From Pseudomonadota bacterium (GTDB taxonomy: Bacteria; Pseudomonadota; Alphaproteobacteria; Caulobacterales; Caulobacteraceae): 60,303 bases of DNA. A model generated the notes under the pieces. That model was not told the origin of the DNA and searched no databases. It worked only from the letters and a program-made list of their open reading frames with translations. The position numbers were made by a program, and so were the translations under genes. The stretch spans positions 1 to 60,303 of the forward strand of contig JAKBBV010000013.1 of NCBI GenBank assembly GCA_021808285.1, in the 5' to 3' direction. Each line of letters starts with the position of its first letter. Positions within the stretch are counted from its first letter, which is position 1. Positions 17,394-51,987 of this stretch are shown in pieces.

Positions 17394-18410
17394 GTGATTG
17401 AACGCAACTGGAACGAACTGATCCGCCCTGAAAAGCCCCAGATCGAGGCTGGCGCCGATGGCGCTCGCCGCGCGCGCCTGATCGCCGAGCCGCTCGAGCG
17501 CGGCTTTGGCGTGACTTTGGGCAACGCGCTGCGCCGCGTGCTGCTCTCTTCGCTCCAGGGCGCCGCCGTGACCGCGATTCAGATTGATGGCGTGGTGCAC
17601 GAGTTTTCCTCCATGGAAGGCGTGCGCGAGGACGTCGTCGACATCGTCCTCAACATCAAGCAACTGGCCTTGCGCATGCATGCCGAAGGCCCGAAGCGCA
17701 TGACCTTGCGGGCCACGGGGCCAGGTCCGGTGACCGCCGCGCAGATCGAAGCGCCTTCGGACATTGAGATTCTCAATCCCAAGCACGTGCTTCTGACCCT
17801 CGACGACGGCGCCTCGGTTCGCATCGAGTTCACGGTCCAGAACGGCAAGGGTTATGTGCCGTCCGAGCGCAACCGCCCGGAAGATGCGCCGATCGGCCTC
17901 ATCGCAGTGGACGCGCTCTACAGCCCGGTGAAGCGCGTTGCCTATCGCGTCGAGCCGACCCGTCAGGGCCAGAGCCTCGACTATGACAAGCTGATCATGG
18001 AAGTGGAGACCAACGGCGCGGTGTCCCCGGTGGACGCCGTGGCCTACGCCGCACGCATCCTTCAGGACCAGCTTCAGGTTTTCATCACCTTCGAAGAGCC
18101 GAAGAAAAAGCTGGAAGGCGAGGCCAAGCCGGACTTGCCGTTCAACCCAGCGCTGCTGAAGAAGGTGGATGAGCTGGAGCTCTCCGTGCGCTCGGCTAAC
18201 TGCCTGAAGAACGACAACATCGTCTATATCGGCGACCTGATCCAGAAGACCGAGGCGGAGATGCTCCGGACCCCGAACTTCGGGCGCAAGTCGCTCAACG
18301 AGATCAAGGAGGTCCTGACCAATATGGGCCTGCACCTCGGCATGGACGTGCCCAACTGGCCGCCTGAAAACATTGAGGAACTGGCCAAGAAGTTCGAAGA
18401 TCAGATCTAA
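17394..18410 (+). CDS. rpoA: DNA-directed RNA polymerase subunit alpha
   Basis: The alpha subunit nucleates RNA polymerase assembly, and its C-terminal domain contacts UP elements and activators. The 338-residue product starts at GTG 17394 ([14 protein letters not shown] follows), preceded by GAGGG. The N-terminal dimer domain includes [19 protein letters not shown]. The C-terminal domain includes [15 protein letters not shown] and [11 protein letters not shown]. The sequence is very close to what I recall of Caulobacterales RpoA, one basis for the taxonomic guess. Confidence 0.98.
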
Positions 18411-47778: not shown

Positions 47779-48369
47779 CGAGATGGGCCCAAGGCGAGAC
47801 GGTGACCGTGCGTCACGTCTGGGGCGGACAGGTGCGCTTTGCGCACCCGGCTATCGTTGTTGCAGATGAGCCGGATCAACTAGCCCTTTTCGAGCCTGTG
47901 GGCGCGGTGCGTCGGTGGAGTGCGTTCGACTTCGAGACCGGCGAGATGCCGTCGCCCGTCGAGCGATCCAGATATTTCACGGACGCCTTGATCCGATGAA
48001 GCCCGGAGCGGCCCACGCCGTCTCTCTGTTTTGGAGCCAGGGACGTTCCTCTGTTGGTATGTCGATCTGCAGGAACCGATACGTCGCGTCGACGACGGCA
48101 TAGTGACGATGGACCAGCAGCTCGACATTGTGGTTGGGCCGGATCTGGCATGGCGCTGGAAGGATGAGGACCATCTGAAGCGGTCTGTCGAGTTGGGTTG
48201 GATAACCCCTGATGAAGCGAGCGGCGTTTGGCGGGAAGGTGAGCGGGTCATCTCTCTGATAGAGGCGCGCGCCCCTCCGTTTGATAATTCATGGACCCAC
48301 TGGCGGCCGGACCCGGCCTGGGCGATTCCCCAGCTGGACAAGAATTGGAACGCCATTCCGCCCGCTTGA
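47775..48369 (+). pseudogene. DUF402-family gene broken by two frameshifts
   Basis: Three consecutive reading frames together rebuild a DUF402 protein. The first (47775-47999) encodes TVTVRHVWGGQVRFAHPAIV and ends FTDALIR-stop. The second carries MKPGAAHAVSLFW from 47996. The third carries PGTFLCWYVDLQEPIRR, LDIVVGPDLAWRWKDEDHLK and APPFDNSWTHWRPDPAW to the stop at 48367-48369. Each junction is what a single-base deletion would give, one near 47988-47999 and one in the TTTTGGAGCCAGGG tract near 48029-48042. DUF402 includes nucleoside phosphatase-like proteins. Decay in the genome or sequencing error are both possible. It is joined to the dimethylformamidase-like gene by ATGA. Confidence 0.8.
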
Positions 48370-48394
48370 CGAGAGAACATAAGCGGAACATAAA
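48366..48394 (+). promoter_or_regulatory. Predicted sigma70-type promoter of sidA (and possibly dnaE)
   Basis: TTGACG (48366-48371) overlaps the DUF402 stop codon. After 17 nt comes CATAAA (48389-48394), one base from TATAAA. Transcription would begin near 48401. One LexA box fills the spacer and a second sits at the predicted start site, a typical layout for tight repression. Confidence 0.6.
48375..48389 (+). promoter_or_regulatory. LexA (SOS) box 1
   Basis: GAACATAAGCGGAAC is a perfect GAAC-N7-GAAC, the reverse complement of GTTC-N7-GTTC, the established LexA site of alphaproteobacteria. It lies between the predicted -35 and -10, so LexA binding would block RNA polymerase. Confidence 0.8.
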
Positions 48395-48399
48395 GGAGA

Positions 48400-48414
48400 G
48401 AACGAAACCAGAAC
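48400..48414 (+). promoter_or_regulatory. LexA (SOS) box 2
   Basis: GAACGAAACCAGAAC is a second perfect GAAC-N7-GAAC in the same orientation, 10 nt after box 1 (25 bp start to start), at the predicted transcription start. Two perfect sites within 40 bp are unlikely by chance and suggest strong SOS control. Confidence 0.8.
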
Positions 48415-48439
48415 CACAAAGTCATTCGAGGTTGTCCCC

Positions 48440-48529
48440 ATGGTTCAGTTCTGTCGCGACTCTCTGGCCCTTGCCTCGGTGGCGGGGTTCGTCTGGATGG
48501 TGTGCCAAGCTACGGTTCTGTTGAGCTGA
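48440..48529 (+). CDS. sidA: Probable SOS-induced cell division inhibitor SidA (29 residues)
   Basis: This small ORF reads [16 protein letters not shown], then [13 protein letters not shown] and TGA. It is a short amphipathic start followed by one hydrophobic segment (~residues 9-28), i.e. a single-pass inner-membrane peptide. A GAGG site lies about 9 nt upstream of the ATG, and two perfect LexA boxes lie 26-65 nt upstream. In Caulobacter crescentus, SidA is a 29-residue LexA-controlled inner-membrane protein that halts division after DNA damage by acting on FtsW/FtsN. Identical length, predicted membrane location and SOS control support homology; I could not align it to the known sequence. 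dnaE starts 32 bp after its stop. Confidence 0.75.
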
Positions 48530-48561: not shown

Positions 48562-51500
48562 ATGAGCGGCGAGTCGACGGAGGATCGGTTCGTGCACCTC
48601 AAGGTGCGCTCAGCCTATTCCGTGCTTGAAGGCGCCCTTCGGTGCGGGCAGATCGCCGCCTTGGCCAAGGCCGGCGGAATGCCGGCTGTGGCGATGACCG
48701 ATCGGGCCAATCTCTTTGGCGCTCTGGAGTTTTCGGCCGCGGCCAGCGCAGCAGGGGTGCAGCCGATCATCGGTTGTCTTCTGCCGCTGACGGGGCTGGG
48801 CGGACAGTCGCCTGTGCGCTGGGCGCCGCTCCCGGCCATCACCCTGTTGGCCCAGGACGAGACGGGTTGGCGTCATCTCTGCGAACTTTCTTCCGCGGCT
48901 TATCTTGAGAATGACGGCGTTCAGGCCCCGCATGTGACCTGGGAAATGATCGCCGCCCACTCCGACGGATTGATCGCGCTCAGCGGGGGAACGGATGGGC
49001 CGGTCGATCCCTTGTTCGCGGCGGGGCGTCCCGCCGAAGCTCGCACGGCGCTGGATGAATTGCTGCGGGTGTTTGGCGATCGTCTCTATGTGGAGCTTCA
49101 GCGGCATGGCCTGGCGGCGCAGACTGCGGCTGAGCCCGGGCTTGTCGGCTGGGCCTATGACAGGGATGTCCCGCTCGTCGCCGTCAACGATGTCTATTTC
49201 GCCGGTCCCGAAGCCTATGCGGCGCACGACGCCCTGCTGTGCATCGCCGACGGCGCCTTCGTTGGCGAGGCGGATCGCCGTCGCGTGACGCCGGAACACG
49301 GACTGAAGAGCGCAGCCGATATGCGACGGCTGTTCGCAGACCTGCCCGAAGCCTGTGACAGCACGCTCGAGATCGCGCGCCGTTGCGCCTTTCTGGTCAA
49401 AAAGCGGGATCCGATTTTGCCGCGGTTTCCCACCCGCGATGGGGCGACGGAGGAGGAGGAATTGGCCCGTCAGGCCCGCGAGGGGCTGCGCCGGAGGCTG
49501 GAGGTCAATGCGCCCGAGGCGCCAGAGGCGTCCTATTGGGCGCGACTGGAGCTTGAGATCGGCGTCATCCAGAAGATGGGCTTCTCCGGGTATTTTCTGA
49601 TCGTCTCAGACTTTATGAAATGGGCGGTGGCTCATGGCATTCCGGTAGGCCCGGGACGCGGCTCCGGCGCCGGCTCGCTCGTGGCCTGGTCATTATGGAT
49701 CACGGGCGTTGATCCGCTCAAATACGGCCTGTTCTTCGAGCGGTTTCTCAATCCCGAACGCGTCTCCATGCCGGACTTCGATATCGACTTCTGCCAGGAG
49801 CGGCGGGACGAGGTCATCGCCTATGTCCAGAACCGCTATGGCGCCGACCGGGTTGCTCAGATCATCACCTTCGGCAGCTTGCAGGCCCGCGCGGTGCTCC
49901 GCGATGTGGGGCGCGTCATGCAACTCCCCTTGGGTCAGGTCGATCGCCTGGCCAAAATGATCCCCAACAACCCCGCGAAACCGGTGACCCTGGCTCAGGC
50001 CATAGACATGGAGCCGCGTCTCCAGGCGGCCCGCGATGAGGATGAGGCGGTCGCCCGCGCTCTGGAGATCGCGCAGGAATTGGAGGGGCTCTATCGCAAC
50101 GCTTCGACCCACGCGGCGGGCATCGTCATCGCCGATCGGCCTCTGACGGAGCTAGCTCCGCTTTATCGGGACCCGCGATCCTCCCTTCCGGCCACTCAGT
50201 TCAACATGAAGTGGGTGGAGAGCGCAGGGCTGGTCAAGTTCGATTTCCTTGGCCTGAAGACCCTGACCGTCGTCGATCGGGCGATGAAGTTCCTGGAGCG
50301 ACGCGGCGCAGGCTTCGATCTCGATAAGCTCGATCTGGACGATGCGCCCACCTACGAACTTCTGGCGAGCGGCCAGACCGTCGGCGTGTTTCAGATGGAA
50401 GGTCAGGGGATGCGCGATACTTTGCGTAAACTCCGACCCTCGTCTGTGGAGGAGATCTGCGCGCTGATTTCCTTGTATCGGCCCGGGCCGATGGACTCCA
50501 TCGACGAGTATGTGGATTGCAAGATGGGCCGACGGCCCGTGATCATCCTGCCGGGCCTTGAGGAGGCGCTCGCCGAGACCTACGGCGTGATCGTCTATCA
50601 GGAGCAGGTGATGAAGATCGCCCAGATCCTGGCGGGCTACTCTCTTGGAGAGGCCGACCTTCTTCGCCGGGCTATGGGCAAGAAGAAGCAGGAGGAGATG
50701 GACCAGCAGCGGGCTCGTTTTCTCTCGGGCGCCGCCGCGCGGGGTCTCGATCCTGAGCGTGCTGAGGATATGTTCGAGCGGATGGCCAAATTTGCGGGCT
50801 ATGGCTTCAACAAGAGCCATGCCGCGCCCTATGCCGTGATCGCCTACCAGACTGCCTGGCTGAAGACCAATGCTCCGGTGGAGTTCTACGCCGCCTCCAT
50901 GAGCCTGGATCTGTCAAATACCGACAAGCTCGCCCAGTTCTATCAGGATGCCCGGCGTTCGGGCGTGGTGATCCTGCCCCCTGATATCAACCGATCGTCC
51001 GCGGACTTCGATGTGGAGGACGGCAAAGTGCTTTATGCCCTGGGCGCCATTCGCAATGTCGGTCTCGCGGCGATGCAGCATGTGGTCGGGGTGCGTCAGA
51101 CGTCGGGCCGGTTTGTCGATCTGTTTGATTTTCTGGAGCGCATAGACCCGCGGGTGGTCAATCGGCGAGCCCTGGAGGGACTGGCCAGAGCGGGCGCCTT
51201 CGATTCGATCCACCCGGGCCGGTCGCAGATCCTGGAGGCTGCCGACACCTTGATGGCCTACGCGCAGGCCTCCGCGTCGGATCGGGCCAGTGCGCAGGAA
51301 AGCCTGTTTGGCGAGGCGGAGATCGCTTCGAGGCCACGCCTCGCGCGCACGGCGGCCTGGGATCCGGCGCGTCAGCTCGATGAGGAACTCTCGGCTGTGG
51401 GCTTCTACCTCTCCGGCCATCCTCTTGACGCCGTGGCCGATGTGTTGGGGCGTCGCGTCACCTTTGTAGCCGACGCTTTGCCGCGCGCCCGGGCCGGGGC

Positions 51501-51987
51501 AGAGGCGTTTCGCATGGGGGGAGTGGTGCGTCGACGCCAGGAGCGCACCTCGGCAAGGGGCGGCAAATTTGCCTTCGTCACCCTTTCGGATCCGACCGGT
51601 GAGTTCGAAGTCATGGTCCAACCGGAAGGATTGCGTCGGTGGCGCGATCTCATCGAACCGGGTCGGTCGGTGGTGATGAAGATGCGGGTCAAGGCGTCGG
51701 AGGGCGAAGTCCGGTTTTATGCCGATGACGTCGAGCCGTTGGAGAAAATCATCGACGCCGCGGGTGGTGAACTGCGTATCCATGTCTCTCCCGAGACGGC
51801 CGATCTCGATGTTCTGCGCGAAAGGCTGAAACCGGCGGAGACGGGTGGAGGGGAGGTGGCGCTCATGGCCGCTTTCCCGGGTGGGCGCGAGGTGAAGCTG
51901 AAGCTGCCTGGCCGTTGGCGTCTCGACGCCGCCACCCGCGGCGCCCTGCGCATGGCGCCTGGCGTCGCCTATCTGGAAGACGCCTGA
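48562..51987 (+). CDS. dnaE: DNA polymerase III alpha subunit (DnaE1, replicative)
   Basis: ATG 48562, with GGGAG upstream, gives 1141 residues, close to alphaproteobacterial DnaE1. The N-terminal PHP domain begins [15 protein letters not shown]; the second His found in the E. coli HLRVHS motif is Arg here. The palm has [15 protein letters not shown] with catalytic Asp407 and Asp409, and a third Asp near 561 ([10 protein letters not shown]). [16 protein letters not shown] is also typical. The C-terminal OB-fold region includes [16 protein letters not shown]. The DIDF context indicates DnaE1, not the error-prone DnaE2/ImuC. It sits 32 bp after sidA and could share its LexA-controlled transcript. 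Confidence 0.96.

Follow-up and report, generated by a model that had tools for sequence, protein, structure and literature searches.

The window analysed here, a stretch of 60,303 nucleotides from a member of the Caulobacteraceae, carries just ahead of dnaE an open reading frame (ORF) of 29 codons. The question raised by this locus is whether the ORF encodes SidA, which in C. crescentus is described as a 29-residue, SOS-induced peptide (PMC4211646), and how far such an arrangement extends beyond the genus in which SidA was characterized.

The ORF spans positions 48440..48529 of the forward strand, with an ATG at 48440 and a TGA stop at 48527-48529 that is included in the span as read directly from the sequence. 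A ribosome-site-like GAGG lies on the same strand at 48428..48431, 8 nt 5' of the ATG. The peptide has a single hydrophobic segment, residues 9-28, which gives the top 20-residue Kyte-Doolittle mean of 2.0. These readings confirm an earlier note on this DNA, which had described the 29 codons, the ribosome site and the single hydrophobic segment. The ORF is coding, since all 10 codon changes relative to the nearest relative examined (G016) are synonymous and 0 are non-synonymous, a signature of purifying selection. Pairwise differences among ten members of the genus number 575, 272 and 181 at codon positions 3, 1 and 2, respectively.

The NCBIfam equivalog model for SidA (NF033228, div_inhib_SidA) matches residues 1-28 of the peptide with 50.1 bits (E 1.8e-13), well over its cut-off of 35. 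Judged from its sequence, the ORF is homologous to the SidA family, and the equivalog score is accompanied by the length (about 29 residues), the lone hydrophobic segment, the LexA-like boxes and the position upstream of dnaE. Annotation need not miss the ORF because the NCBI model detects it above cut-off, which contradicts the earlier claim that standard annotation would fail to see a gene of this size. A Pfam search of the ORF returned no match over cut-off, and PsaJ, to which there was only a weak Pfam match (E 0.1), was rejected as its identity. The peptide shares with C. crescentus SidA, as represented by NF033228, the length of 29 residues, the single hydrophobic segment, a core around SLALxSVxGFVWM, the LexA-like boxes and the position before dnaE, while its N- and C-terminal residues differ and its boxes are 25 nt apart versus the usual 17-18 nt. 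Counted by eye, 15 of 29 residues are identical to the copy in a record named C. vibrioides OR37.

Two exact GAAC-N7-GAAC boxes, which the earlier note had also pointed out, are indeed found just 5' of the ORF on the forward strand: GAACATAAGCGGAAC at 48375..48389 and GAACGAAACCAGAAC at 48400..48414, starting 65 and 40 nt before the sidA ATG, respectively. A putative promoter, TTGACG-N17-CATAAA (48366..48394, forward strand) can be read by eye, with TTGACG at 48366-48371, CATAAA at 48389-48394 and the first box lying mostly within the 17-nt spacer, but a stricter sigma-70 consensus scan reported no promoter at sidA. TTGAC occurs within 110 nt upstream of sidA in 59 of the 108 family regions described below. 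A DUF402-like ORF (48031-48369; Pfam E 1.7e-7) terminates within the putative -35 element. A lone exact box is weak evidence, since the whole genome holds 73 of them compared with 47 for the reversed control pattern, and the count in the window (4, with 1.29 expected) is reached by 3 of 100 shuffles. The evidence from the boxes rests instead on their pairing, position and conservation. The remaining exact boxes of the window, at 17400-17414 and 17817-17831, fall inside a reading frame that we read as RpoA-like and are probably due to chance. The genome possesses lexA, the match to which is preceded at about 57 nt by an exact box. It also has two ftsW-family matches (328.9 and 269.6 bits); the better one lies below the model's cut-off of 337.5, as is likewise the case in 7 of 10 matching control genomes.

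The gene for the DNA polymerase III alpha subunit, dnaE, follows at 48562..51987 on the same strand (NF004226, 1401.2 bits; cut-off 1002), its ATG being 32 nt 3' of the sidA stop. An in-frame GTG occurs upstream at 48502, and the ATG at 48562, which is preceded by GGGAG, is the start preferred here. A terminator-like site was sought in the gap between the two genes and none was seen. Joint transcription of sidA and dnaE is likely, and given the short gap and the lack of a terminator-like site, derepression of sidA would probably raise dnaE transcription as well. In C. crescentus, dnaE is CC1926 (PMC1839093).

Within the family of the window, NF033228 matches 326 of 390 genomes at E <= 0.01, and 209 of these 326 (209 of 390 overall) exceed its cut-off. 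Among 14 control genomes the only match is in Caulobacter vibrioides. A sample of the order gave matches in 80 of 398 genomes, one of them outside the family; the latter (G396) covers only 8 residues and was rejected as noise; the peptide before dnaE of that genome lies elsewhere. The neighbourhood of dnaE was then compared in 141 genomes (134 from the family, 7 from other families), a set chosen with preference for genomes that lacked a match to NF033228. A dnaE match at E <= 1e-40 was obtained in 118 of the 141, and 115 upstream stretches were compared (G032, G229 and G262 were left out); together with the window, and less three genomes of other families, these constitute 113 Caulobacteraceae regions. 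A sidA gene of 28-31 residues precedes dnaE in 108 of the 113 as detected with an HMM grown from these same sequences, which also finds sidA in genomes missed by NF033228, such as G018-G021 of genus g3. The distance from the sidA stop to the dnaE match has a median of 55 nt and ranges from 22 to 340 nt. The five regions without sidA are those of G052, in which the gene has moved, G236, where the contig ends and a different contig carries the gene, and G276, G277 and G196, whose stretches of about 2 kb contain no sidA. A second match in G235 (L261) is a SidA-like ORF of 37 residues that lacks LexA boxes and may represent an additional copy with different regulation.

The boxes are conserved along with the gene. 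If one mismatch is allowed, all 108 regions contain a GAAC-type box in the 120 nt upstream of sidA (reversed control word, 14 of 108); an exact box occurs there in 72 of 108 (control, 0 of 108), and 26 of the 108 have two or more exact boxes in either orientation. Of the 104 regions with two or more boxes, 79 have the last two spaced by 17-18 nt, so the 25-nt spacing in the window is unusual. The boxes serve sidA first: in G052 they moved with the gene, which now sits on another contig with two boxes (one exact, one with one mismatch), and no GAAC-type box occurs within 350 nt before dnaE in G052 or in G276, G277 and G196. The gene ahead of the relocated sidA (L260) ends in a stretch resembling an ACT domain and is possibly RelA/SpoT. 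The earlier note had named a lack of similarity to SidA, or of conservation of the ORF among relatives, as grounds for giving up the identification; similarity was found with NF033228 above its cut-off, and conservation in 108 of 113 Caulobacteraceae regions. The homology with SidA that it proposed is supported by the score of 50.1 bits, the conserved place beside dnaE and the LexA-like boxes seen throughout the family.

Since the ORF so regularly precedes dnaE at a short distance, one could suppose that it is a leader peptide whose translation tunes dnaE expression and that no independent protein is made. Such a role is improbable, however, given that the distance between the sidA stop and dnaE is so variable, that sidA of G052 is located elsewhere together with its boxes, that the amino-acid sequence is conserved, and that C. 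crescentus SidA acts when overproduced alone (PMC4211646).

Hardly better placed is the idea that the ORF encodes an SOS-induced, membrane-active toxin of the TisB/DinQ type that disturbs the membrane rather than the divisome. TisB belongs to a class of small, hydrophobic, membrane-active toxins under SOS control, and the size, single hydrophobic segment and SOS control of the window ORF fit that class, of which DinQ is a further example; the ORF is nevertheless a member of the SidA equivalog, which makes this explanation very unlikely for the window ORF, though it may apply to the diverged peptides outside the family that are described below. That a chance ORF of about 29 codons happens to follow chance boxes, both being common in the genome, is scarcely conceivable in view of the NF033228 match, the conserved boxes and place beside dnaE, the synonymous-only changes and the conservation seen in relatives.

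We therefore assign the ORF at 48440-48529 to sidA, with a probability of roughly 0.94 for that identity together with a function carried over from C. crescentus. The window copy, an ordinary SidA, adds one more instance of a gene already known. By homology with C. crescentus, it would be induced in the SOS response, bind FtsW and cause filamentation. In C. crescentus, SidA contacts FtsW and FtsN in two-hybrid tests, and its effect is suppressed by mutations in FtsW and FtsI while FtsZ rings are unaffected (PMC4211646). Deletion of lexA leads to filamentation through sidA, and the lexA sidA double deletion is reported to abolish it (PMC12700426). Based on C. crescentus, LexA bound to the boxes would shut the sidA promoter until damaged replication forks expose single-stranded DNA, upon which RecA would be activated, LexA cleaved and the peptide made. 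SidA would then insert into the inner membrane and keep the septum-building complex of FtsW, FtsI and FtsN inactive, so that the FtsZ ring would stay intact and division would wait during repair.

Several known inhibitors resemble SidA. DidA of C. crescentus is likewise small, crosses the membrane once, is induced by damage and inhibits the same FtsW/I/N step (PMC4211646), but it has 71 residues, is induced by DriD independently of the SOS response, and binds FtsN. YneA of Bacillus, SosA of Staphylococcus and ChiZ of Mycobacterium are also small, damage-induced membrane inhibitors of late division, although YneA and ChiZ possess a LysM domain and SosA an extended helix. AlphaFold 3 places SidA, SosA and ChiZ on FtsW TM7, in complexes not of high confidence (PMC13396833), with SidA predicted on the opposite side of the helix from those inhibitors.

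Two of the three genomes of other families set aside above have tandem boxes before dnaE with a small hydrophobic ORF between. The arrangement was surveyed in 80 genomes from four other families of the order (f2-f5), all with a dnaE match. To count as a candidate, an ORF had to be 24-45 codons long, reach a hydropathy mean of 1.4 or more over 17 residues, lie within 600 nt before dnaE and begin 10-90 nt past a GAAC-type box carrying no more than one mismatch. Candidates occur in 0 of 21 genomes of f2, 11 of 20 of f3, 19 of 19 of f4 and 19 of 20 of f5, or 49 of 80 in all; the f5 count includes G397 and G433, whose loci are cut at contig ends and meet the same definition. Controls, run when the f5 count stood at 17 of 20 before these two were added, gave 0 of 80 on the opposite strand, 7 of 80 with the control word CAAG and 8 of 1600 dinucleotide shuffles. 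As a base rate, at 30 of the 69 other exact boxes of the window genome such an ORF follows once per orientation. The expectation that the same ORF would be seen upstream of dnaE in other Caulobacterales was borne out in the Caulobacteraceae and, as a SidA-like ORF, in these 49 genomes, but not in f2. The boxed small hydrophobic ORFs before dnaE outside the Caulobacteraceae are among loci L266-L344, which include f3, f4 and f5.

The last f5 genome (G452) has the ORF with no box within one mismatch. Among the nine f3 genomes that lack a candidate, G411 has an exact box and G419 and G442 a one-mismatch box near dnaE with no such ORF; in four more the one-mismatch boxes lie at a greater distance upstream, and the remaining two have no box. 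Boxes and peptide are not always together, as these f3 genomes with boxes near dnaE demonstrate. In f2, where no candidate ORF was found, an exact box of the opposite orientation occurs in 4 of 21 genomes and an exact GAAC-type box in two. An exact GTTC-N7-GTTC lies upstream of dnaE with no small hydrophobic ORF in genus g29 of that family (L332, L342, L341 and L340), and dnaE itself may be SOS-controlled in those four genomes.

A class-wide sample of 57 genomes was also searched, and the best 30 loci by E-value, 28 of them from other orders, were examined. By the original definition, four of these 28 (G696, G697, G723 and G734) have a candidate. After G701 had been seen, the length limit was relaxed to 48 codons and the hydropathy limit to 1.2, which gave five of the 28, all with exact boxes; with the relaxed limits, 0 of 560 shuffles qualified with an exact box and 3 of 560 when one mismatch was allowed, and the opposite strand and control word gave 0. 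The layout is shared by 3 of 3 genomes in the order of G696, the order of G734 is represented by one genome, and the layouts of G697, G701, G723 and G734 come from one genome each. Five families of other orders display the layout (L352, L375, L376, L350, L347, L356 and L367).

The wider peptides are termed SidA-like rather than SidA since NF033228 matched none of ten peptides from f3, f4, f5 and other orders. The same ten had no NCBIfam or Pfam match over cut-off, and their weak hits look like chance. When peptides were compared singly with the Caulobacteraceae profile, no more than 1 in 200 shuffles attained the observed score for 6 of 18 f4 peptides, and at least 11 in 200 did so for every one of 17 f5 peptides. 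Because most f4 and f5 peptides do no better than shuffles, single-sequence searches are insufficient for the wider family, and the case is carried by comparison of profiles, which was evaluated against 100 column permutations that kept the N-terminal and hydrophobic blocks. The Caulobacteraceae and f4 profiles score 32.9 (best permutation 21.9), f4 and f3 27.0 (20.7), and f3 and f5 26.0 (18.1), with 0 of 100 permutations reaching the score in each case. One permutation in 100 reaches the scores for f4 with f5 (21.4) and Caulobacteraceae with f3 (17.7), and 19 of 100 reach that for Caulobacteraceae with f5 (9.5). Among peptides of other orders, that of G696 scores 18.8 bits with the Caulobacteraceae profile and its two relatives 15.8 and 13.3, all with 0 of 200 shuffles. 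The G701 peptide scores 11.8 bits (1 of 200 shuffles), or 17.8 bits (0) when the profile includes f4, and the G734 peptide scores 4.2 bits, reached by 2 and 0 of 200 shuffles in two runs. The peptides of G697 and G723 score less than 1 bit, which 35 to 73 of 200 shuffles reach. The profile tests appear to link most groups to SidA, f5 only indirectly, and do not link the single peptides of G697 and G723.

A shared core may be visible in the placement of tryptophan, counted from an origin defined as the final acidic residue or Asn with no D, E, K, R or N among the 11 residues after it (two peptides without this origin were excluded). Of 93 Caulobacteraceae peptides, 76 have Trp at one of the positions +12 and +17 (always +12; maximum of 500 shuffles, 19), as do 16 of 17 from f4 (shuffle maximum 5) and 12 of 20 from f5 (always +17; shuffle maximum 4). 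The count for f3, 4 of 6, equals the maximum of 500 shuffles (4), and that for other orders is 5 of 7 (shuffle maximum 4), three of the seven peptides coming from one order. Trp is present at both positions in the peptides of the G696 group, G701 and G734.

Taken as a whole, SidA probably represents a single branch of an ancient SOS locus of the alphaproteobacteria, composed of one or more LexA boxes, a small single-pass division-arrest peptide and dnaE. Such a locus would tie a division brake to the gene for the replicative polymerase, would be present in at least four families of the order and further families of other orders, outside current models, and would have as its core an acidic residue or Asn ahead of the helix and Trp 12 and/or 17 residues later. 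The SidA literature covered concerns C. crescentus; in its titles and the opening lines of its abstracts, neither SidA outside Caulobacter nor a sidA-dnaE locus across the alphaproteobacteria is recognized, though Modell 2011 may mention the dnaE neighbourhood or relatives. While the window supplies one more well-supported SidA, it is the wider distribution that deserves to be pursued. Should the wider set prove sound, a SidA-type checkpoint overlooked by annotation would exist in many alphaproteobacteria, the diverged sequences would reveal which residues are required to touch FtsW, and it could be tested why a division brake is kept beside the gene for the replicative polymerase and is probably transcribed together with it.
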